IMG/VR virus record: IMGVR_UViG_3300023296_000646
Coordinates: 30,981 to 94,980 of that record
Strand: one strand, 5' to 3'
Origin: a virus
DNA length: 64,000 nt
Part shown: positions 7,233-48,508 of the stretch, in pieces
How the letters are laid out: each line of letters opens with the position of its first letter
Position numbering within the stretch: position 1 is the stretch's first letter
Translations under genes and position numbers: made by a program
The notes under the pieces: model-generated
The model's input: only the letters and a program-made list of their open reading frames with translations
What the model was told of the DNA's origin: nothing
The model's database searches: none

Positions 7233-10200
7233 TTATTCAATAATTTTCTCACGTTCTACACCATTCCAGTACTTGATAGCTGCTTCATCCTTTCTAGTTG
7301 CTATTACCAATACATTATATTCACCGTCAGTGTCTGCGTATACCCTCACTGCGTTTTTGTCTGGTGTTATTTTACCGTATGCTCTACCAAAATGATCAAC
7401 AGCATTTACCCATATTTGTACATCAGTGTTTAAGTAATGGAAATAATCTGGTATGAGGGTCCAGCCAGATCCATCATACACATCAACTGTGAATCTATAA
7501 ATGTTGTCACCAGCTGTTGGAGACTCAACAAACGAATGCCATAGAGTATGTGTATCCGTTTTTTCTGGATCTGGATGATCAATCATAAATGATCCAGCGG
7601 TTTTACTTAATGTACCTGCTACGTGGAGCGACGGTTCTACCACCCACCGAACATTAGTCCAGTCGTAATAAATTTCACTACCGAAGTTTAAAGATCCACT
7701 ATAAACTGGGGCAATGTATACTTTGTTTGCTGCCAATCCAGAACCAGATACTGCAGCAATTGCCAATCCAGTACTATTGGAAGTTCCTTCAGAATCCCGT
7801 AGTAAAAACTGAGCAAGTACGTTATTTGATCCATTAACCAATGCGTTAATTGATTCTTCAGATGTTATAGATCCCCTTGCTACTATCTTATTAGATGTTG
7901 ATGCTCCAAATGAATGACCAGAACCTACCGTCAGATGATCCGTAGTTGTTAACCCACCAACAGTAAGATCTGTTGATATTTCTTGACTACCAGTTACCGA
8001 AAGTTGACCAACTACCAATACTGCTGGTGTTGAATCTTGAACTCGTAAGTATGCGTCTGCGGCGGCTACTGCTTGAAATCCACCACCATTAATGGTTGTT
8101 TTTGCCAATTCCAACGTTGCACTTATAGTTTCTCCAGCCAAATTAAACGATGAATCTGGGACTGTTGACAGCGGTTTTGCAGAAAACCACCCACCACTCT
8201 CTTCAATGTGCCATTGCGCTGTATATGTTGTAATACCCGATGTTAAGTCAGCATCTACTGTGAATTTATGTGAAGTCCAACTTACTGTAGTATTCCAACC
8301 TTGATCTACTGAATATGATGTTATGGTTCTAGTACCACTTTCAGCTATCAACGTGGTACCATTAAAAATTTGTAACTTAACCGTTGCCGACGCTATACCA
8401 TTACCGTCAAATGCAGAATCACCACAATATACAGTCCTACTTGCATGTGCTCCAAGTGTAGCTGATACTGTGTACGTACCAGTTAATGTGGGTGCTGGGG
8501 AGAACGTTACTGGGTGGACATAAATTGATGATGATATTCCAGTATTAGCCCAAGAAACTGCGTGCGTTGTTGTGGTTGAAGTTTCAGTTAGAGTTTCACC
8601 CGCAGTTGGATCTGGTAGTGTCAATGCAGTATTTGCTAAGAATCTAGCCGCTCCATTTGAATCTCTAACACTTATAGAATCATTACTACCGTCAAGCGTA
8701 ATTTTACCACCCACAGACGTTAATGCAGTACCCGAAAGTGTAAATCCACCAACCTCACCGCTACTTGCACTAACAAATCCAGTGAAACTAGCGTTTTTTG
8801 CAACAAGTGATCCAGATGAATCTAAACTGAAGTTTGGTGCCTGTATCGAATCATTATATACGGCTACACCACCAATTGTACCACCTATGGCGTATATTGT
8901 ACCAGATACTGCCAATACGTTTGTACCCGAATTCCACGATAAGCCGTTACCAGATCCACCAGTTCCATTTAAATAAAAGTTACCATCGTTGTTCATGTAT
9001 GTTGTCCATGTACTTCCAACATGGAACCCAAGTTCGGTTGCAGTCAGAGACAATCCAGTACCTGTTGGTGCTGCATCTCGCCATACGAACCCCTGATTCG
9101 TTGTGAATATTGACAATGATGCACTTGTCAAATCTCCAGCCAACGACGATGAATATGCAGAAGACGATGCATATGAATTTGTAACATCATCTGCTAGAGA
9201 TCCAGAAACTTCATCAAATGCTCCAGAAACATTATTTGAACCCGAAGTGATATTATCTGCGAGTGATGATGAATATAAAGAAGATGATGCATATGAATCA
9301 GTAATACCACCCGCCAATGATCCAGAAACGGCATCAAACGCCCCAGAAACATTATTTGAACCCGAAGTGATATTATCTGCGAGTGATGACGAATATAAAG
9401 AAGACGATGCATATGAATCAGTAATACCAGTTTCATTCAGAGTAATTGAAATTCCTTGAGCGGTAACAGTTGTTGCAGCAGATGATGAATATGCAGATGA
9501 AGATGCAAATGAATCTGTAATTGAAATTCCTTGAGCTGTGATCGACGTCGCAGCAGATGATGAATACGCAGATGAAGATGCATATGAATTCGTTATTGAA
9601 ATTCCTTGAGCTGTGATGTCAGTTGAAAATGACGACGAATATCCAGAAGAAGAAGCAAACGAATCAGTAATTGAAATTCCTTGAGCTGTTATATCGGTTG
9701 ATAACGATTGAGAATACGCAGATGAAGATGCATATGAATTCGTTATTGAAATTCCTTGAGCTGTAATCGATGTGGCCAATGACGAAGAAGTTCCATCAAA
9801 TGCACCAGATACATTATTAGCGTTGGCTGTAATAGTAATTCCTTGAGCTGTGATCGACGTCGCAGCAGATGATGAATATGCAGATGAAGATGCGTATGAA
9901 TTCGTTATTGAAATTCCTTGAGCGGTTATATCTGTCTGAAACGATTGAGAATATCCTTCATTAGACTGTGATACCGAAGTTAATGTCAATCCCTGAGCAG
10001 TTAAATCTGCTTGAAATGATTGAGAGTATCCAGAAGAAGAAGCAAACGAATCAGTAATTGAAATTCCTTGTGCCGTAATATCAGTTGAAAATGACTGAGA
10101 ATAAGCTGACGACGACGCATACGAATTTGTTATTGAAATTCCTTGATCTGTTATTGATGTTGCGAATGATTGAGAAACCGTATCGAATGCCCCAGATATC

Positions 10201-13200
10201 GATGATGTTGTTGGGACATTTCCGCCAGTTACAGTAATCGCACCCTTCACCGATAAGTTGGAACCATTCCAAATCATATGACCGTTTGATCCTGACAATG
10301 ACATTTTTAATGTTTCACCACTAACTGATCCGGATCCTAAATAAAATCCAGACTGTGCGTAATTTTGGACAGATTGTCCTAACGAAATATATGGACTATC
10401 AATACCACCGTTTAATGCAATGTTAGCCTCACCAGATACTTCGTTTGTACCAATGTTTAAAACCTTTCCAATATATGCGTCCTGTGCAAGTAAAATATCA
10501 GTAGCAACTGCTGCGAAATTTGTAAAAGTTCCCCAATAATCAGTAGTATTAGAACCTGTTGGATGCCCGTTATTTGAGCTAATTGTAGATTTTAAATCTC
10601 CGTCAGATCCAGTATAATAATAATACGTACTACCGTGGGTAACAATATCTCTTCTAACATCGTCGTTTTGAAGTGGCCAATTTGCAAGTAAATCATCATA
10701 GTCACCTATATAAACTACTCCTGGACCCTGACGACCCTGATAGGCCTTTGTCACTGTAAATGAACCCTGAAGTGTCGTTGTATAATCACTATATGCCTTA
10801 GATGCAGTTACAGATACTAATGCAGTTTCTAGTGTGCTAGGTGTAAATGAATCTACTGCTATTGTTTCTTTATCTGTTGCGACTAGAGCTGACATATTTG
10901 CAGAACTACTGGCCCATGTCCATGTAGTATAATCGGTCTCAAGTTCTCCGTCTACATAGAGATATACATCTACAGTATTTGGCAAACCGGATATAACATC
11001 TCCAGTAGGTCCTGCTGGGACTACAAAGCTTTCTGGAGAAAATGATAGACCAAACGCATTACGAGGTTCTGATACTATTGTAAATTGTTCCTTTATTGTA
11101 ATAGATGCGCTAGTGAACGCGATAGTCATATTGCTAGTGCCGCCGCCATCTACATCAATAGATACGTTTGCCCAATCATCGGTTCTAAGACCAGTATTTT
11201 CTGATCCAGTTTGAAGATTCGTTCCGCTAATAGTTATGGGCCAACCTCTAGTCGCAGTTACAGTATCACCTATGTAAAACGATGCAGTAATTCCATTTGT
11301 AACATCGGTAGGTGTATAAACTCCAGTATTAGGGCTGTATTGCCAAACTCTGTTATTATCATCAAGGTTTAATATTCCGCTAGGTGCTGCTATTCCATCT
11401 GTTCCATCAGATACAACATGAAACGTTTCCTCTGTTGTGAGCGAAGTTCCGTATGTAGGATCTACATATGTAAACGTTACACTTAAATCCTTTGTATTTG
11501 CGTATGAATCTTCTGATACTGAATTGCCATCAACATCACTCACAGTGACAGCAATATCAGTAGATCCACCAGGTTCATAACTCCAGCTCATCTGATCAAC
11601 TGTACCTGTCCAATTTGGATCTATTCCTACATATCTACTATACACTACACCCGTTCCGTCGCTCTGGTTCGGTATATAAAAACTACCGGTAATTCCCAAT
11701 GTAGATGGGGTGTACTCATTGCTTCCGCTTCGAATTAACGTGCGACCTGAATCTGTGGAAATATATCCAGCAGGTTTTCCGTCTTGCAAATCTGCAAGGG
11801 TAATTGTATCAGCAACTACTGATCCAGATTTTGCAATAATAGTTAAAGATCCAGTTATTGCAGAACCACTAATTTGTGCGTGATATGGAAGAATTCCAGA
11901 TCCGTTATACGGAGAGCCTGTTGCTGTACCTGCTGAAATACCATTCATCGATCCTACTAATTCTACAGATGCAGAATAGAGTTTTATATCTCCTGAATTT
12001 AAAATATATTCCTGGGATCCTGATACCTTTACTAGTTGAATTTCTAAATTTCCTGCGTTACTTGGATCACCACCGTCTTTGTTTTTTAAGACAGTCCCAA
12101 AGAATGGTCTGATTAAATATGATACAGAATTAGTACCATCAGTAATATCAGATACTGAAATTGTATCTACTACTGCTAGAGCTGATCCAGAATACCATTC
12201 AAATACTTCTAATGAATCAATATCATCTTTAGTAATTCGATATACTGTTCCTCCAGGAAGAGATGCAGTAATATTTGAGTTATCACTCTGTTTACGCAGA
12301 TATGATGTAGAACCAGATATAATATCTGTAACAGATCCACTTGTTGTAGTTTGGGTTTTAAATTCTAAATATGCAGGCTGGTGTAATCCGGAATTTGGAT
12401 TTGTACTGAAATATGTGCCACTTATTGGAAGAATTGTGTGAGCTAACGTGTCTATGCTTCCAGAACCATCTAAACCTTCTACGGTTATGTAGAATGTCTC
12501 TTCTGTGGTCATCGTGTTTGCATATGTAGGATCAGTATACGTAAATGTTAAACTTAAATCAGTAGTAGTTGCATATGCGTCTTCTGAAACAGATCCACCG
12601 TCTAAGTCGTTTCCTATAACCTCAATATCAGAAGTTCCTCCTGTATCATAGCTCCAACTCATTTGATCTGCAGATCCATTCCAATTTGGATCTATGGATA
12701 CATACCTATTATATGTAGTACCTGATCCATCGGATTTGTTTGGTATATAAAAACTACCAGTTAATCCTATTGAATTAATATTATATGTAGATGTATTTGG
12801 ATCTCTCTTAAAAACTCTAGTATTTGCAGTGACATATCCTGCAGGAAGTCCATCTTGTAAATCTGCTAGAGTTATTGAATCCCATAAGATTCCAGATCCA
12901 GTATCCTCTGCAGTCAGTAATAATGATCCAGTAATAGCAGATCCGCTTATTTGTGCATTGTATCTAACATCTGCCAATCTGGTGCCATCACCTATTCCAT
13001 TAAAGCTAGTATTCAGTTCAACACTTGCTGAATATAATCTTACATTTCCAAGGGCTACAGATGAACTTACTAATCTACCATCTACAAACTTTACAATTTC
13101 TATTTCAAGATTTCCTGTGTTATCTGGATCTCCACCATCTTTGTTTTTTAAAACAGTTCCAAATACTGGGCGTATGAACACCTGCTTACCAGATAAGCCG

Positions 13201-16200
13201 TCGGTTGAGGTGTTTATTGACACAGCATCATATTTACCTTCCGAAGATGCAGTAATTTCAACATTCCCAACAGTATATCCATTATCAGATCCTGTGAAAT
13301 TGGCAACAGTCATTGTTCCACCAGAATCAGTTAAATCAGTCATTGTTCCTGGATAAACATCTGCTCCAAATGTAGAGAATAAATAGCATGTATCTGTAAT
13401 AGAATCCCTATTAACCGACGCAGTAAGTGGAAAGTCTGATCTCTGAAGTGTTAATGAACTAGTATTATTTCCATAAAAAGATGATGTGAATGTTTGGTTA
13501 CCAGTTCCACCAACTACGGATCCCACTAACGACGATGTTGTAATATTAGTACCATCGTTTTTCTTGACAGTAAAGTCTCCAGATATAATAGTACCAGATA
13601 AACTTTCTTGCTGTATAGTAAAGGTGACAGTGTCCGATGTTGGAATTGTAGACCCAGATTCTTGATATTCAATTGGACTAGGAGACGCAAACATTATTAG
13701 CTTTTCAGATCCACCTGATTTGTCCTTAGATACTGTGAACGTGTGCTCATACAGCATATCCGCTATGCTAGCGCTTAGAGTTACTGTTCCACTATCAGTA
13801 TCATCATGAAGAGATGCAGTATACAATCCAGTTGAATCTATACTAGCTGTTACTCCGGCAGATGAACCAGATAATGTAAATGTTGTCCCAGATGATACGT
13901 TATCATTTGCGCTAAAGACAAAGAAACTTCCAGTAGTTCCTAGATAGTTACCACCTGTGCCATTTGCTTCAGTTGCCACGCTATGGGTAGCATTTGAAAG
14001 AAATGTTACATATGACGATGTTTCGTATGATGCAGATGGGATTAAAGAACCAGAATCATCGAACGCCTGAGATGCATAAGTTATTGATCCTGTTACTAAA
14101 CCTCTAGTAGACGTAGTAAATGTTATAGCCTGGGCTATTGGATTTGCAGTCAATACGAAACTACCTGAAATATCTGGCGTATTGAATGTAAAGCTAGGTC
14201 TGTTTGCGCTAAAGTTTACCGATTTTCCAAACAGACTACCACCATAGAAACTTTGCTTATCTGATACTACAGTTATGTCGATTAGGTTAGAGTTGACATC
14301 AAAAAATTCTGATTTGAATTCATACGTTTGGTCATTTATCGTAGTCGGTATTTGAATCGTTGTTACAAATTGATTTGGACTAAAATTGGTTTCATGATAT
14401 TCCTTTAGACTAACATCACCTATGTACCATTCTGCACCTCTTATTACAAAATTAAGTACCCCAGTTCCATTATATGTTGGTTCAAAGTTTTCAGAAAAAT
14501 CTAATGTAGTTCTAACACCACCAACCTTTACGGATCCTATAAGTTGACCATACGAATGATTGTCATCTATTATTCCCAATGATCCTGTAGTATTGTTAAA
14601 TGATGAACCGCTAAGAAATACTTCCAATGATCCTTCACCCAATCCTATTGTGGAAAACGATACATTATATTCTGATCCTGTTACGTATGGTGTTTCAACT
14701 GAATTGTTAAATCCATATTCGTTTTTTACAGATGAACTATATGCATATGTACTTCCAGTATATTGACTAGTGCCTGCTAAGGAACTAGATACTTCTGCTA
14801 ATATGAATATTGTATTATCAGATCCATTATTGGCAATAAAGCTTGGGGTTGAAATTTCAGTAGATGCAGATACATAAAAGCTTTGTGTAGCGCCAGAAGA
14901 TATAGATTCGCTTTCGTAATAAACAGATCCAGTAAATGTACCAGTTCCTGCGTGTGATCTAGATTCATACGTTAAAATTTGAGTTAAAAATTCTGATGCC
15001 GATGATGTTGTGAACGTATAAGTAGCAGGAAATGTTGTTGATCCTGAAGTAAATTCTTTAACGGTTGCAGATGATGTTAGATGTACAGACTGGAATAATG
15101 TTGAATCATTATTTGATGCAGTTATAAAAAATGAAGACGTATTCCAATAGCTATCAATTGTTGCCTGAGTTCTAAATGTCCCAGTTCTGTATTCTGTGCC
15201 AGTTTTAGAATCGTCCTTTAATTCTTCCCTAGCTTCAATTACTTGATCTTGGACTAATTCGTAATCAGTTTCAACTGTACTGCCTATTGGTCTTCTATAT
15301 AGTTTAATCCTATGAACATCACCAGAAAATGTTTCTAAGTTTGTAATAGTAACCGTTGCAAATGATGCAGTACCGTCGTTTGATGGATCTGTTTCAAATG
15401 ATTCTGATGTATACGCAGAAATGAAACTGACATCGCTAAAATCTGCAATGACTTCTTTGTATGAGCTGGCGTGTATAGAATTGGACGATGTAATAAAATA
15501 CGGAGTGGTTGCTAACGCCTCAGTATCACTTAGTATCTTTTTTAACTTAGTCGTGTACGTTTGATTTAGTGACGATACCGTTATTATGCCCTCGCTAGGA
15601 ACCATTAGTTCGCTAAATGTAGATCCAGATATTGTTAATTTATATTCAGTATTACCGTTGAATCTACTCCAATCATGTCCTGCCTTTGGAAATCCTGCAG
15701 ATCCACTTAAACTACCAGAATTTTGAATTATTGTTGGAACTCTCTTTTTGAGATTAACAATGTTTTCTGTGACTGAAATTATTGGTCTAGAAGTAAATCT
15801 TACCCTAGTTTCGTTTGGTAATGATTTGTTAATGAATATTGGATATTCCCACCTAACATTATAATTGTCTTTCCATTCGTCAGGAATATCTATCAAATCT
15901 CCAGATTCATTTCTATACTTTCTAAGCTCACCTAGAATTGTAATTTTACCTTGACCAATTGGAGTATCGTCATATACCCACACAGAAACTACCTTAGATC
16001 TTCCTTCGTAATATTGTGGCCGTCCTTGGGCCACTTCATAGTAAACTGGGTTTCCATCAACATCTGTAATTTCAACCTTAACGGTAGTTCCTAATTCTAA
16101 TTCACGTGTTCCTGTAATTAGAAATCCGTTCTTTCCACCAGTCAGAGTTTGAGGTAGATCCGTTACTGCAAAATATCTAGAACCAACACTCCTGTCTTCT

Positions 16201-16259
16201 TTAAAGACTACGTATTGATCTAAATTTTGCTTTTCTACTATTCTCTTAATTCTTGGCAT
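7233..16259 (-). CDS. Giant tail fibre / receptor-binding structural protein
   Basis: 3008 residues, among the longest genes expected in such a phage. The N-terminal part has beta-rich segments; then come Ser/Thr/Gly-rich Ig-like or beta-sandwich modules, including two copies of a module about 245 residues long (12455-13190 and 11392-12125). Next is a zone of about 25-residue repeats of the type SITAQGISITNSYASSSAYS (9100-10200). The C-terminal region has distinct beta-domains and ends in a compact tail. The composition is typical of marine T4-like phage fibres. Signal peptide and catalytic motifs are absent. A variant promoter element lies 24 nt before ATG 16259. It most likely binds the host surface; the exact receptor domain is not identified. 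Confidence 0.8.
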   Translation of the reverse strand: MPRIKRIVEKQNLDQYVVFKEDRSVGSRYFAVTDLPQTLTGGKNGFLITGTRELELGTTVKVEITDVDGNPVYYEVAQGRPQYYEGRSKVVSVWVYDDTPIGQGKITILGELRKYRNESGDLIDIPDEWKDNYNVRWEYPIFINKSLPNETRVRFTSRPIISVTENIVNLKKRVPTIIQNSGSLSGSAGFPKAGHDWSRFNGNTEYKLTISGSTFSELMVPSEGIITVSSLNQTYTTKLKKILSDTEALATTPYFITSSNSIHASSYKEVIADFSDVSFISAYTSESFETDPSNDGTASFATVTITNLETFSGDVHRIKLYRRPIGSTVETDYELVQDQVIEAREELKDDSKTGTEYRTGTFRTQATIDSYWNTSSFFITASNNDSTLFQSVHLTSSATVKEFTSGSTTFPATYTFTTSSASEFLTQILTYESRSHAGTGTFTGSVYYESESISSGATQSFYVSASTEISTPSFIANNGSDNTIFILAEVSSSLAGTSQYTGSTYAYSSSVKNEYGFNNSVETPYVTGSEYNVSFSTIGLGEGSLEVFLSGSSFNNTTGSLGIIDDNHSYGQLIGSVKVGGVRTTLDFSENFEPTYNGTGVLNFVIRGAEWYIGDVSLKEYHETNFSPNQFVTTIQIPTTINDQTYEFKSEFFDVNSNLIDITVVSDKQSFYGGSLFGKSVNFSANRPSFTFNTPDISGSFVLTANPIAQAITFTTSTRGLVTGSITYASQAFDDSGSLIPSASYETSSYVTFLSNATHSVATEANGTGGNYLGTTGSFFVFSANDNVSSGTTFTLSGSSAGVTASIDSTGLYTASLHDDTDSGTVTLSASIADMLYEHTFTVSKDKSGGSEKLIMFASPSPIEYQESGSTIPTSDTVTFTIQQESLSGTIISGDFTVKKNDGTNITTSSLVGSVVGGTGNQTFTSSFYGNNTSSLTLQRSDFPLTASVNRDSITDTCYLFSTFGADVYPGTMTDLTDSGGTMTVANFTGSDNGYTVGNVEITASSEGKYDAVSINTSTDGLSGKQVFIRPVFGTVLKNKDGGDPDNTGNLEIEIVKFVDGRLVSSSVALGNVRLYSASVELNTSFNGIGDGTRLADVRYNAQISGSAITGSLLLTAEDTGSGILWDSITLADLQDGLPAGYVTANTRVFKRDPNTSTYNINSIGLTGSFYIPNKSDGSGTTYNRYVSIDPNWNGSADQMSWSYDTGGTSDIEVIGNDLDGGSVSEDAYATTTDLSLTFTYTDPTYANTMTTEETFYITVEGLDGSGSIDTLAHTILPISGTYFSTNPNSGLHQPAYLEFKTQTTTSGSVTDIISGSTSYLRKQSDNSNITASLPGGTVYRITKDDIDSLEVFEWYSGSALAVVDTISVSDITDGTNSVSYLIRPFFGTVLKNKDGGDPSNAGNLEIQLVKVSGSQEYILNSGDIKLYSASVELVGSMNGISAGTATGSPYNGSGILPYHAQISGSAITGSLTIIAKSGSVVADTITLADLQDGKPAGYISTDSGRTLIRSGSNEYTPSTLGITGSFYIPNQSDGTGVVYSRYVGIDPNWTGTVDQMSWSYEPGGSTDIAVTVSDVDGNSVSEDSYANTKDLSVTFTYVDPTYGTSLTTEETFHVVSDGTDGIAAPSGILNLDDNNRVWQYSPNTGVYTPTDVTNGITASFYIGDTVTATRGWPITISGTNLQTGSENTGLRTDDWANVSIDVDGGGTSNMTIAFTSASITIKEQFTIVSEPRNAFGLSFSPESFVVPAGPTGDVISGLPNTVDVYLYVDGELETDYTTWTWASSSANMSALVATDKETIAVDSFTPSTLETALVSVTASKAYSDYTTTLQGSFTVTKAYQGRQGPGVVYIGDYDDLLANWPLQNDDVRRDIVTHGSTYYYYTGSDGDLKSTISSNNGHPTGSNTTDYWGTFTNFAAVATDILLAQDAYIGKVLNIGTNEVSGEANIALNGGIDSPYISLGQSVQNYAQSGFYLGSGSVSGETLKMSLSGSNGHMIWNGSNLSVKGAITVTGGNVPTTSSISGAFDTVSQSFATSITDQGISITNSYASSSAYSQSFSTDITAQGISITDSFASSSGYSQSFQADLTAQGLTLTSVSQSNEGYSQSFQTDITAQGISITNSYASSSAYSSSAATSITAQGITITANANNVSGAFDGTSSSLATSITAQGISITNSYASSSAYSQSLSTDITAQGISITDSFASSSGYSSSFSTDITAQGISITNSYASSSAYSSSAATSITAQGISITDSFASSSAYSSSAATTVTAQGISITLNETGITDSYASSSLYSSSLADNITSGSNNVSGAFDAVSGSLAGGITDSYASSSLYSSSLADNITSGSNNVSGAFDEVSGSLADDVTNSYASSSAYSSSLAGDLTSASLSIFTTNQGFVWRDAAPTGTGLSLTATELGFHVGSTWTTYMNNDGNFYLNGTGGSGNGLSWNSGTNVLAVSGTIYAIGGTIGGVAVYNDSIQAPNFSLDSSGSLVAKNASFTGFVSASSGEVGGFTLSGTALTSVGGKITLDGSNDSISVRDSNGAARFLANTALTLPDPTAGETLTETSTTTTHAVSWANTGISSSIYVHPVTFSPAPTLTGTYTVSATLGAHASRTVYCGDSAFDGNGIASATVKLQIFNGTTLIAESGTRTITSYSVDQGWNTTVSWTSHKFTVDADLTSGITTYTAQWHIEESGGWFSAKPLSTVPDSSFNLAGETISATLELAKTTINGGGFQAVAAADAYLRVQDSTPAVLVVGQLSVTGSQEISTDLTVGGLTTTDHLTVGSGHSFGASTSNKIVARGSITSEESINALVNGSNNVLAQFLLRDSEGTSNSTGLAIAAVSGSGLAANKVYIAPVYSGSLNFGSEIYYDWTNVRWVVEPSLHVAGTLSKTAGSFMIDHPDPEKTDTHTLWHSFVESPTAGDNIYRFTVDVYDGSGWTLIPDYFHYLNTDVQIWVNAVDHFGRAYGKITPDKNAVRVYADTDGEYNVLVIATRKDEAAIKYWNGVEREKIIE
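9100..10200 (-). repeat. Array of about 75-bp coding repeats in the fibre gene
   Basis: The plus strand repeats a segment close to ATTGAAATTCCTTGAG followed by GCAGATGAAGATGCATATGAAT many times. It encodes 25-residue units of the type ITAQGISITxSxASSSxYSxS, some with NNVSGAFDxxSxS inserts. The units are imperfect, so they look like selected protein repeats (extended beta or coiled rod), not recent slippage. Confidence 0.85.
11392..12125 (-). repeat. Second copy of the ~245-residue fibre module
   Basis: Begins with LIRPFFGTVLKNKDGGDP and ends near TTEETFHVVSDG. It is a diverged tandem copy of the module at 12455-13190, with shared SASVEL, AQISGSAITGSL, ITLADLQDG.PAGY, GSFYIPN.SDG and DQMSWSY segments. 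Confidence 0.85.
12455..13190 (-). repeat. First copy of the ~245-residue fibre module
   Basis: Begins with FIRPVFGTVLKNKDGGDP and ends near TTEETFYITVEG. Paired with 11392-12125; the two differ at many positions, so the duplication is old or the copies are under diversifying selection. Confidence 0.85.
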
Positions 16260-37690: not shown

Positions 37691-38692
37691 TCACCACTTG
37701 AAACTGCTACTCATATTAAATTCTCGTCCTACCTCTACAATATCTCCAGTATTTCGAAATTCAGTTAACATATCAAACTGGGTCTTTTTCATTATGTTTA
37801 CAACCCTAGTTATGTATTGAGTTTTACAATCTGCCATTTCTCTAATTAGCAAATACAGATGCTTTTTATTGAAGTTTTCAATGCTATCTGATCTCCTGAA
37901 CAATTCTAATATGGCATCTGCAATTTGTATGTCTCTCTTTTTTCTAAATACAGTAGTTAGATTTTTATCCCAAAAATCTAGCATTATACCTTTAAATTCT
38001 ACCCACTCAGAAACGTCTTCTCTTTCGAAAAAATTATCTTCAATTTCCCAATTTTCTGGCATAGTAGACATTAATGTAGATCTCTTATACCTTCTGTGAT
38101 TACTATTATTCAACTGCATAAGATAATGCTTAGCAACTACTGTGAAATACGAAAATGCCCTAGTTCCCTTTGATTCATCGTACTTATGAAGGTTCAATAA
38201 TAAGTTATGAAGAGCTTCTGTTTTAATATGATCAGGTGGAGCATCAAAATATGAAAGCTTATATTTGTTGTACATATTCTCCACTATTTTTTCAAGTGGA
38301 TATATAATATGATCGCTAAATATTTTATTTTTCCAGTACTCTATTTCGGTTGATCTGTGATCTGTATAGAGCAGAGTGGTGTATTCTAACTGAGCAGTTA
38401 GTCTTTTTATTTTGTGATTAAGATCACTTAGCTTGAGTTCCTTATCTTCTAGCTCCATTGTTATATTGGTAACTCTGTGTAACTCATCATATAACTTAGC
38501 CAAGGTCTCTACACATACATCAGATTTCCAAGACATTTTGTTATAGAGAACAATAGCATTTTCAGTCTCCTGCGTAAAATAAAATATTTTCTTTTTACGA
38601 CCACGATTTCTAGTAGCCGTCTTGGCCTTTTCTTCTAGAAATTCTTTTGCCTTAGTTACTATTTCGTACTGTACAACTTCACTTAAATTCAT
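37691..38692 (-). CDS. Late-transcription sigma factor, gp55-like
   Basis: 333 residues. The region at about 165-205 (EALHNLLLNLHKYDESKGTR then AFSYFTVVAKHYLMQLNN) matches sigma region 2 as found in T4 gp55, which recognises late promoters through a -10 element only. The N-terminal half is helical, and the C-terminal part could contact the sliding clamp; no clear clamp-binding tail is seen. It lies between the terminator and the small membrane gene. The recurrent GTATATTTATA element is the likely target. Confidence 0.75.
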   Translation of the reverse strand: MNLSEVVQYEIVTKAKEFLEEKAKTATRNRGRKKKIFYFTQETENAIVLYNKMSWKSDVCVETLAKLYDELHRVTNITMELEDKELKLSDLNHKIKRLTAQLEYTTLLYTDHRSTEIEYWKNKIFSDHIIYPLEKIVENMYNKYKLSYFDAPPDHIKTEALHNLLLNLHKYDESKGTRAFSYFTVVAKHYLMQLNNSNHRRYKRSTLMSTMPENWEIEDNFFEREDVSEWVEFKGIMLDFWDKNLTTVFRKKRDIQIADAILELFRRSDSIENFNKKHLYLLIREMADCKTQYITRVVNIMKKTQFDMLTEFRNTGDIVEVGREFNMSSSFKW

Positions 38693-38943: not shown

Positions 38944-38974
38944 ATTGTACGGTAAGTTAAAAAATAATTAATCG

Positions 38975-39336
38975 TGGAGATGCCGGGAGTCGAACCCGGG
39001 TGTTACATTGTTTCAATACAAAGTCGTTCACGTGTGTAGGTAATTTCTTTCCAATTTCCAAAGTCACATTGAATTTTGCGTTATGCAATGTTTAACGAAA
39101 CAAGTTTTTCAGTTCTACATATTTCTTAGAACATGGTTTGTAAAAGTCTTTGATTAAGACCCCAAGTTAGCTTACGCTAATACTTCTTCTACAGGAGTCC
39201 CAACGAGTGCCATGGCATCTTCGAAGGTAAAGTCAGAAAGTGATTCTGCATTTATTTGTTTTTTGATGTTTAAGACCTTTCTAGTCTACACGCACTTCAT
39301 ACCGCTCCAACATAGTCGAATACCAAGTACATCCCC
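38975..39336 (-). ncRNA. ssrA: Phage-encoded transfer-messenger RNA (tmRNA)
   Basis: Rescues ribosomes stalled on broken mRNA and tags the product for proteolysis. The 5' end GGGGATG pairs over 7 bp with CATCTCC at the 3' end; a T-arm GGGTTCGACTCCC and a D-arm-like GTATTCGAC are present. CCA is not encoded (ACGA follows). The resume frame starts at GCA 39249 and runs 25 codons to TAA 39172-39174, giving a tag that begins AESLSDFTFED and ends PVEEVLA. Length (about 362 nt) is typical. A perfect promoter element ends 9 nt before the 5' end. Confidence 0.93.
39172..39249 (-). other. tmRNA tag-peptide reading frame
   Basis: 25 codons from the GCA resume codon to TAA. Its length is above the usual 8-12 residues, and it ends -EEVLA instead of the common -ALAA. 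The other two frames give TGA or a tag without a hydrophobic end. Confidence 0.8.
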
Positions 39337-39345
39337 ATATTGTTA

Positions 39346-39356
39346 TATAAATATAC
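39346..39356 (-). promoter_or_regulatory. Late promoter-like element of the tmRNA
   Basis: Perfect GTATATTTATA with 9 nt to the mature tmRNA 5' end, the spacing expected of a -10 box. It anchors the assignment of the recurrent motif as a promoter. Confidence 0.7.
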
Positions 39357-40736: not shown

Positions 40737-41354
40737 TTATTTAACCTCCCATCCTTCACCTAACAGGTGTATTCCATGCTTATATTTCATAAATTCTGCA
40801 TCTCCTGTCTTAACATTCATAAACATAACTTGTTCATTTCTACCGTACTTTTTAACTTTAGAAACAGTACTAGAATACACTCTATCTTTAATTGTAATTC
40901 CATTCAGATGGTCTATCTCATGCTGAATTACTACTGATTGCAGAAACCCAACATCATTCCAGAAGTTTACTGGGTTTGCATCCCAATCTTCTCTACTATC
41001 TGGACCAAAAACCATATCATCTGCTAGATTATCTGCTCTAACCTTTACCCACTCAAACCGCTCAGTTTTGATTAGCTTCTTTTTCGTTTTTGGAATAGAT
41101 AAACATCCCTCATAATACGTAAACCGTTCTTCAGAAGTTTCTACGATCTGAGGGTTAATTAAATAAAGAGGTTCCTCCTTAACATTAATTACGCATACTC
41201 GCTTACTCAATCCTATCTGATTTGCAGATAATCCCAATCCACCTGCTATCGTTAATTCTGAAAATAGCGCTGCTGAAATTACTTCAGCTTCATTTGATTC
41301 AAAATTACTTACCGGTACAGGTATTCTTAATTTGTCTAAGTCTGTTGTTATCAT
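40737..41354 (-). CDS. def: Peptide deformylase
   Basis: Removes the formyl group from nascent proteins. The three family motifs are present: GLGLSANQIG (GxGLAAxQ), EGCLSIP and QHEIDHLNG (HExDH zinc site). The start at ATG 41354 (205 residues) has a GGAG site 9 nt upstream; a TTG 15 nt further up is less likely. Phage deformylases are known from marine myoviruses, where they are thought to support fast virion protein maturation. Part of the translation-related set with tmRNA and PTH2-like genes. Confidence 0.92.
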   Translation of the reverse strand: MITTDLDKLRIPVPVSNFESNEAEVISAALFSELTIAGGLGLSANQIGLSKRVCVINVKEEPLYLINPQIVETSEERFTYYEGCLSIPKTKKKLIKTERFEWVKVRADNLADDMVFGPDSREDWDANPVNFWNDVGFLQSVVIQHEIDHLNGITIKDRVYSSTVSKVKKYGRNEQVMFMNVKTGDAEFMKYKHGIHLLGEGWEVK

Positions 41355-41390
41355 ATTATTAAACTCCAAACAAGTAATACTCTGTTTGGT

Positions 41391-48433: not shown

Positions 48434-48437
48434 ATCG

Positions 48438-48508
48438 TGCTCGTACAGAGACTTGAACTCTGATCCAACGCTTTAGAGGCGCATGCTCTACCATTGAGCT
48501 ATACGAGC
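48438..48508 (-). tRNA. Amber suppressor-type tRNA, anticodon CUA
   Basis: 71-nt cloverleaf: acceptor GCTCGTA/TACGAGC (7 bp), D-stem GCTC/GAGC with loop AATGGTA, anticodon loop CTCTAAA, T-stem CAGAG/CTCTG with loop TTCAAGT, variable loop GGAT, discriminator A. CCA not encoded (CGA follows). U33 and A37 are in place, so positions 34-36 are CTA and read UAG; shifting the loop by one would put C at 33 and break a stem pair. The anticodon stem has a T-T mismatch at 27:43 and G-T at 28:42. 3:70 is not G-U, so alanyl identity is not expected; the charged amino acid is unknown. Confidence 0.85.

Follow-up and report, generated by a model that had tools for sequence, protein, structure and literature searches.

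A phage-encoded tmRNA with a long tag, a conserved tag core and a non-canonical tag end

The window, i.e. the whole stretch of 64,000 nucleotides analysed here, contains a complete one-piece tmRNA gene encoding a tag of 25 amino acids, AESLSDFTFEDAMALVGTPVEEVLA*. The tag belongs to a family of long tags in phage tmRNAs that share a conserved core, and in the small clade to which the window belongs the end of the tag is derived. Judging from its sequence, the RNA is very probably a functional tagging RNA. For the explanation as a whole, a working phage tmRNA with a tag core that has a function of its own and with an altered tag end, we estimate a probability of about 75%. That the altered end also gives the tagged proteins a different fate is possible, at somewhat less than even odds.

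ARAGORN places the coding part of the tag at positions 88-165 of the gene. The Rfam model RF00023 matches in full (model positions 1-374, window positions 38972-39336) with 75.5 bits (gathering score 47) and an E value of 1.6e-27, whereas the best host tmRNAs reach 106-198 bits with the same model. The preliminary description, made from the letters alone, had proposed complete acceptor pairing, a T-arm, a D-like element and a 25-codon tag frame starting at GCA, and had named a covariance-model search as a check; these features are all present, and the search did not refute the proposal. The acceptor stem GGGGATG/CATCTCC is paired in 7/7 positions including G3:U70, which is the alanine identity pair, and both the T-arm and the D-like GTATTCGAC are present. 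The resume codon GCA follows AAACAAATAAAT, which is near the Rfam consensus AAAAAAUAAuU. The coordinates are collected in Table 1.

Table 1. Features of the tmRNA locus in the window (all coordinates are window positions)
Feature	Position	Strand	Remarks
tmRNA gene, one-piece, ssrA-like	38974..39336	-	CCA not encoded; ARAGORN and Rfam RF00023
5' acceptor strand GGGGAUG	39330..39336	-	Partner 38976-38982 (CAUCUCC); G3:U70 present
T-arm CCGGG-TTCGACT-CCCGG	38983..38999	-	Stem 5/5 paired, loop TTCGACT
Apparent hairpin at PK1 position, AGACU-AGAAA-GGUCU	39273..39287	-	Compensatory stem differences in L359 and L196 (alignment)
Tag reading frame, 25 codons and TAA, AESLSDFTFEDAMALVGTPVEEVLA*	39172..39249	-	In-frame pN/pS 0.30 against L162
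Tag core T-F-E-D-A-M-A-L-V-G, conserved	39199..39228	-	Family comparison
Non-canonical tag end TPVEEVLA and stop	39172..39198	-	The wider family has (A)DYAVAA there
Promoter-like recurring motif GTATATTTATA	39346..39356	-	Just upstream of the mature tmRNA 5' end
333-aa protein, synteny marker	37691..38692	-	Downstream of tmRNA; identity 61% L162, ~48% L180, ~51% L359
Small ORF, 43 aa	39364..39495	-	Immediately upstream of tmRNA
Peptide deformylase	40737..41369	-	1.4 kb upstream of tmRNA; Pfam PF01327, E 6e-27

Typically there are four pseudoknots in a tmRNA. Minimum-free-energy folding of the window RNA on its own, with a program that cannot model pseudoknots, gave an unremarkable z of -1.5. 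That the RNA goes beyond chance follows from the existence of syntenic orthologous tmRNAs with the same tag family. Among 60 tmRNAs of the family, the acceptor stem occurs in 15 sequence types but is fully paired in 59 and has G3:U70 in 59, and the T-stem is paired in all 60. The acceptor-stem types and the compensatory changes at the PK1 position indicate that the fold of the RNA is under selection as well as the tag. A megablast comparison of the window region with cultured phages gave no match, and blastn with the tmRNAs matched only generic T-arm stretches.

The tag is the best-conserved segment of the RNA across four orthologs, with 72% identical columns compared with 52% upstream of it, 42% downstream (the pseudoknot regions) and 64% in the 3' tRNA-like part. 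The ortholog at locus L162 was located through the 333-aa neighbour protein without use of the tag; its tmRNA (8310-8666) lies in the same place as that of the window and has the tag AEDISDFTYEDAMALVGTPVEELV with TAG as stop codon. Tag-based patterns yielded L180 and L196 (both AEEISNFTFEDAMALVGTPVEELV), L359 (AEETSEFTYEDAMALVGASVEELV) and the more distant L360 (AEEKSSFTFEDAMAFVGEGDLVLA). In the four-ortholog alignment 17/22, 19/22 and 14/22 first, second and third codon positions are identical. In the tag frame all ortholog pairs have pN/pS values of 0.29-0.48, whereas in the two other frames the value exceeds 1 for every pair that includes the window; for the window and L162 taken by themselves the contrast comes from about nine changes (~4.5 synonymous and ~4.5 nonsynonymous). 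The preliminary description had asked whether the frame is disrupted in related genomes, and it is conserved there. A second copy of the tag core was not found elsewhere in the 64,000-nt window, and a comparison of the tag with solved proteins gave no match.

This conservation bears on the idea that the RNA is a decoy which binds host SmpB or ribosomes and inhibits or titrates trans-translation, so that the tag hardly matters. The tmRNA of phage DS6A, which consists of the tRNA-like domain only, is a suggested precedent (PMC4131195; PMC11915505), and since SmpB is missing from the phage record, the RNA would have to share that of the host. However, a decoy could do without an open frame, and here no part of the RNA is better conserved than the tag frame, whose changes are biased towards synonymous ones; family members also have both the resume context and a stop codon. 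We regard a decoy as very improbable.

The virus record of 94,980 bases is of myovirus type, with terminase, primase, baseplate wedge and portal genes, and thus the claim that the tmRNA is phage-encoded is borne out. The genes flanking the tmRNA, including those for peptide deformylase and the 333-aa protein, are shared in L162, L180 and L359, and an ORF of similar size to the 43-aa ORF directly precedes the tmRNA in L162, L196 and L359. Peptide deformylase is a second translation-related gene in this neighbourhood. By terminase and baseplate the nearest cultured relatives are Flavobacterium phage immuto and Microcystis phage Mel-JY01, from which a flavobacterial or other Bacteroidota host may be guessed.

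The tmRNA resembles Bacteroidota ssrA in its tRNA-like domain, G3:U70, T-arm, resume context and full model match, but the tag of 25 aa differs from the bacterial ones of 9-10 aa, ends in -EEVLA instead of -ALAA or -AMAA, and is unrelated in sequence to the ANDYSYAMAA and GENNYALAA types. Among 30 Bacteroidota tmRNAs, 29 have tags of 9-10 aa ending in -AA, and the frame of the remaining ARAGORN call, which has 14 residues, seems to have been misread. The window tag is about 2.5 times the usual bacterial length; a modal length of 10 aa has been published for tags (PMC11915505). None of 395 Bacteroidota genomes contained the tag in a search that detected 14 of 17 phage records as positive control. 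These genomes and controls were used because a contig pattern with a TCGAC anchor, for which 0/45 matches were tmRNA and which most family members lack, says little about bacteria in general.

These comparisons leave little room for a host ssrA gene that was acquired by accident and is now drifting as cargo or a remnant. The low covariance score and the variable presence of the gene among related phages would fit such an origin, but tags of this kind are absent from the 395 genomes, the stems show compensatory changes and the frame is constrained, and the position of the gene has been kept across strongly diverged relatives. An accidental origin is extremely improbable, even more so than a decoy.

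At least 121 loci, found with the IMG/VR pattern T-[FY]-[ED]-D-A-M-x-[FL]-V-G or among earlier loci, have the core within a frame that resembles a tag, and 72 of those listed are distinct at the nucleotide level. Among these loci the core is S-x-[FMW]-T-F-E-D-A-M-[AS]-F-V-G with (A)DYAVAA as the usual end, and the consensus is approximately [AD][VE]E[LK]S[ST][FMW]TFEDAM[AS]FVGADYAVAA. The family tags have 23-26 aa and occur in more than 100 phage sequences. With SDFTFEDAMALVG the window tag fits the family motif S-x-[FMW]-T-[FY]-[ED]-D-A-M-[AS]-[FL]-V-G at a length within this range, but it has -TPVEEVLA in place of the (A)DYAVAA-like end of the majority, which is typical and not universal in the family. 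Compared with other IMG/VR members such as L365, L374 and L297, the window tag is alike in length and core, and it differs in that those mostly have (A)DYAVAA ends whereas the window clade has TPVEEVLA, TPVEELV or ASVEELV.

The conservation of the core is partly by construction, because the search pattern fixes it in most members. Seven members were picked up by a T-arm pattern that is blind to the tag, and at two positions outside the search pattern there is a serine (position -4, in 71 of the 72 distinct tags) and a bulky hydrophobic residue (position -2, in all of them). ARAGORN found no further tmRNA in the first 160 related loci, most of which are fragments that stop short of the locus.

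In the tmRNA tree the window, L162, L196 and L359 form a group with support 0.999 that is nested inside the family. The -VEELV/-VEEVLA end is thus derived, most simply from a tag whose end was like that of most bacterial tags. In the terminase tree, likewise, the window and five long-tag phages form a group (94/83), and the terminases of several family phages are the nearest to that of the window (59-63%). The family is also found in phages whose terminases are very distant. Two large phages of this kind, at L518 (G082) and L519 (G084), of 254 and 294 kb, are the only long-tag phages in which SmpB was found; a tmRNA with a TFEDAM tag together with an SmpB gene makes a nearly complete kit for trans-translation.

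The preliminary description had called the tag unusually long and its end atypical. Against Bacteroidota both parts of this description stand. The length is ordinary among phages, however, given the family of 23-26 aa and the tags of 22-28 aa in cultured actinobacterial phages, and 25 aa as an unusual feature in itself was rejected for phages. A ClpXP-type ssrA degron is a C-terminal end of small nonpolar residues, -LAA or -(V,L,M)AA. This type of end is absent from the window tag (-EEVLA) and from its orthologs (-VEELV).

It is conceivable that the tag is nevertheless an ordinary one, with a -VLA or -LV end that ClpXP or ClpAP of the host can still recognise, a long N-terminal part that serves as linker or adaptor site, and nothing new in the fate of the product. 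Every family tag ends in A or V, thus in a small or hydrophobic residue, -AVAA is the end found in the closest family members, and the variants LVA and AAV of the E. coli tag serve as degradation tags (PMC9382460). On the other hand, the second-last alanine has become leucine with two glutamates ahead of it, while 28 of 34 distinct family tags called by ARAGORN keep -AA. The -VEELV end is itself conserved in three lineages, which argues against simple decay. We consider an ordinary tag a serious but minority possibility, slightly less probable than an altered fate.

An opposite suggestion is that the tag does not lead to degradation at all, but has rescued proteins sent to a phage structure or kept inert, so that the RNA serves ribosome recycling only. 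The loss of the canonical degron in the window clade while the core was retained would suit this, as would the ends of other long phage tags that are not -AA (Phabba -VLV, Mareelih -ALV and Calle_3 -VAVGV). But the ends remain hydrophobic like those of degrons, most of the family has kept the canonical end, and no phage partner was identified; a tag without any role in degradation is unlikely.

The reading that we prefer is that of a working tmRNA with a functional core and a changed end. The RNA would depend on the host both for AlaRS, to be charged with alanine, and for SmpB as its binding partner, since no SmpB gene was found in the 94,980-base record, the part of the phage genome that is known. 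Ala-tmRNA would then enter ribosomes stalled on broken mRNAs and receive the peptide, translation would resume at GCA, and the 25-residue tag would be added before termination, so that ribosomes are freed and unfinished proteins are marked. The core (SxFTFEDAM[AS]FVG) has been kept over wide divergence, even without a ClpX-type end, which suggests that it binds something; it would act in its own right, most likely by binding an adaptor or a protease. With -AVAA/-ALAA exchanged for -VEELV/-VEEVLA in the window clade, the handling of tagged proteins may well differ from that of proteins tagged by the host, and they might meet another protease, adaptor-dependent degradation or slower degradation. 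The proposal in the preliminary description that the tag is read by a different protease or by none is plausible, and it is strengthened by the loss of the canonical end in a clade where the core stayed. More tentatively, and with rather low probability, the core instead of a C-terminal degron could be the working part, a phage docking site that steers stalled products to a pathway of the phage's choice (adaptor, protease or sequestration), the ClpXP degron having been abandoned in the window clade. If so, ribosome rescue would be uncoupled from standard ssrA proteolysis in this clade.

Long tags that differ in sequence also occur in phages outside this family. Gordonia phage Mareelih (28 aa, -ALV) and the Mycobacterium phages Phabba (26 aa, -VLV) and EniyanLRS, which keeps -AA, also encode tmRNAs with acidic tags of 22-28 aa, but they have other hosts and no tag motif in common with the window, and Mareelih and Phabba have the core TEADFAxIEAFA. 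A second family of long phage tags, of about 23-24 aa, was seen at L224, L225, L276, L288 and L539 (Cellulophaga phage Calle_3) with the core AQIEANM(N/E)xV. These ANAQIEANM tmRNAs differ from that of the window in the core and in the upstream RNA; Calle_3 is a flavobacterial phage that has likewise lost the -AA end (-VAVGV, not -AVAA). The recurrence of long tags without -AA in Mareelih, Phabba and Calle_3 is the strongest hint that phages gain from long tags unlike those of the host. In bacteria, the mf-ssrA tag of Mesoplasma florum is longer than that of E. coli and is read by Lon (PMC9382460). It is similar in its length and in having an end read by a protease other than ClpXP, but it is encoded on a bacterial chromosome, ends in NYAFA and is unrelated in sequence to the window tag.

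Phage tmRNAs as such are known: 402 of 18,146 phage genomes carried one in one survey (PMC9004378), the search for a 2025 tmRNA database covered viral genomes too (PMC11915505), and long phage tags ending in -LV are already found in GenBank annotation, as in Mareelih. No description of the TFEDAM tag family or of the degron replacement was found in the open-access literature, and a large phage tmRNA family with a shared long tag is apparently undescribed. Phage tmRNAs are usually annotated and then left alone. A nested clade that lacks the standard degron but has kept the core makes it testable whether phages only recycle ribosomes or also redirect unfinished proteins, and the family may yield new degrons that are orthogonal to host tags.

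The preliminary description had also assumed a promoter in front of the tmRNA and late expression. The first part is partly upheld by the motif GTATATTTATA, which is likely to be a phage promoter: TATTTATA has 13 copies on the minus (coding) strand where about 5.4 are expected, compared with 0 for TATAAATA where about 6.7 are expected, and 7 of the 13 copies are intergenic. The motif was absent upstream of the tmRNA in four other sequences that were checked, however. Late expression is weakly suggested by the copy that precedes the portal gene, but the motif is not conserved at the tmRNA of relatives, where a small ORF directly precedes.

The window further contains a tRNA with a CUA (amber) anticodon at 48437-48508 (-), with 67 bits for the Rfam tRNA model. 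Recoding of TAG, as this tRNA might suggest, was rejected, since TAG terminates 5 of 32 long ORFs and is the stop codon of many family tags, where it comes directly after a canonical -AA. As TAG still terminates several genes of the phage, the tRNA looks like a suppressor and not like full recoding. Readthrough would extend tags that stop at TAG, as those of L162 and many family members (e.g. L368) do. The ORF at 7233-16259 (-) encodes a protein of 3008 aa with a Ser/Ala-rich repeat and no Pfam or PHROG match, which is probably fibre-like; within it CAAGGAATTTCAAT occurs eight times at about 9458-10145, mostly at intervals of 75 bases or multiples thereof.

Other tmRNA forms were seen in related or larger phages. 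Two relatives by baseplate gene, L228 and L229 (G027 and G026), have a permuted (two-piece) tmRNA in which the 3' acceptor part precedes the tag part, and tags near AQVEMAMAA and EHVEMAMAA; they score below the RF00023 cut-off. The 484-kb phage W03 (LR756508.1) has a full-length match at 92434-92880 and, at 414804-414915 (locus L538), a tmRNA-like sequence of about 110 nt with the tRNA domain only, which at 58 bits is above the RF00023 cut-off and recalls the DS6A type.
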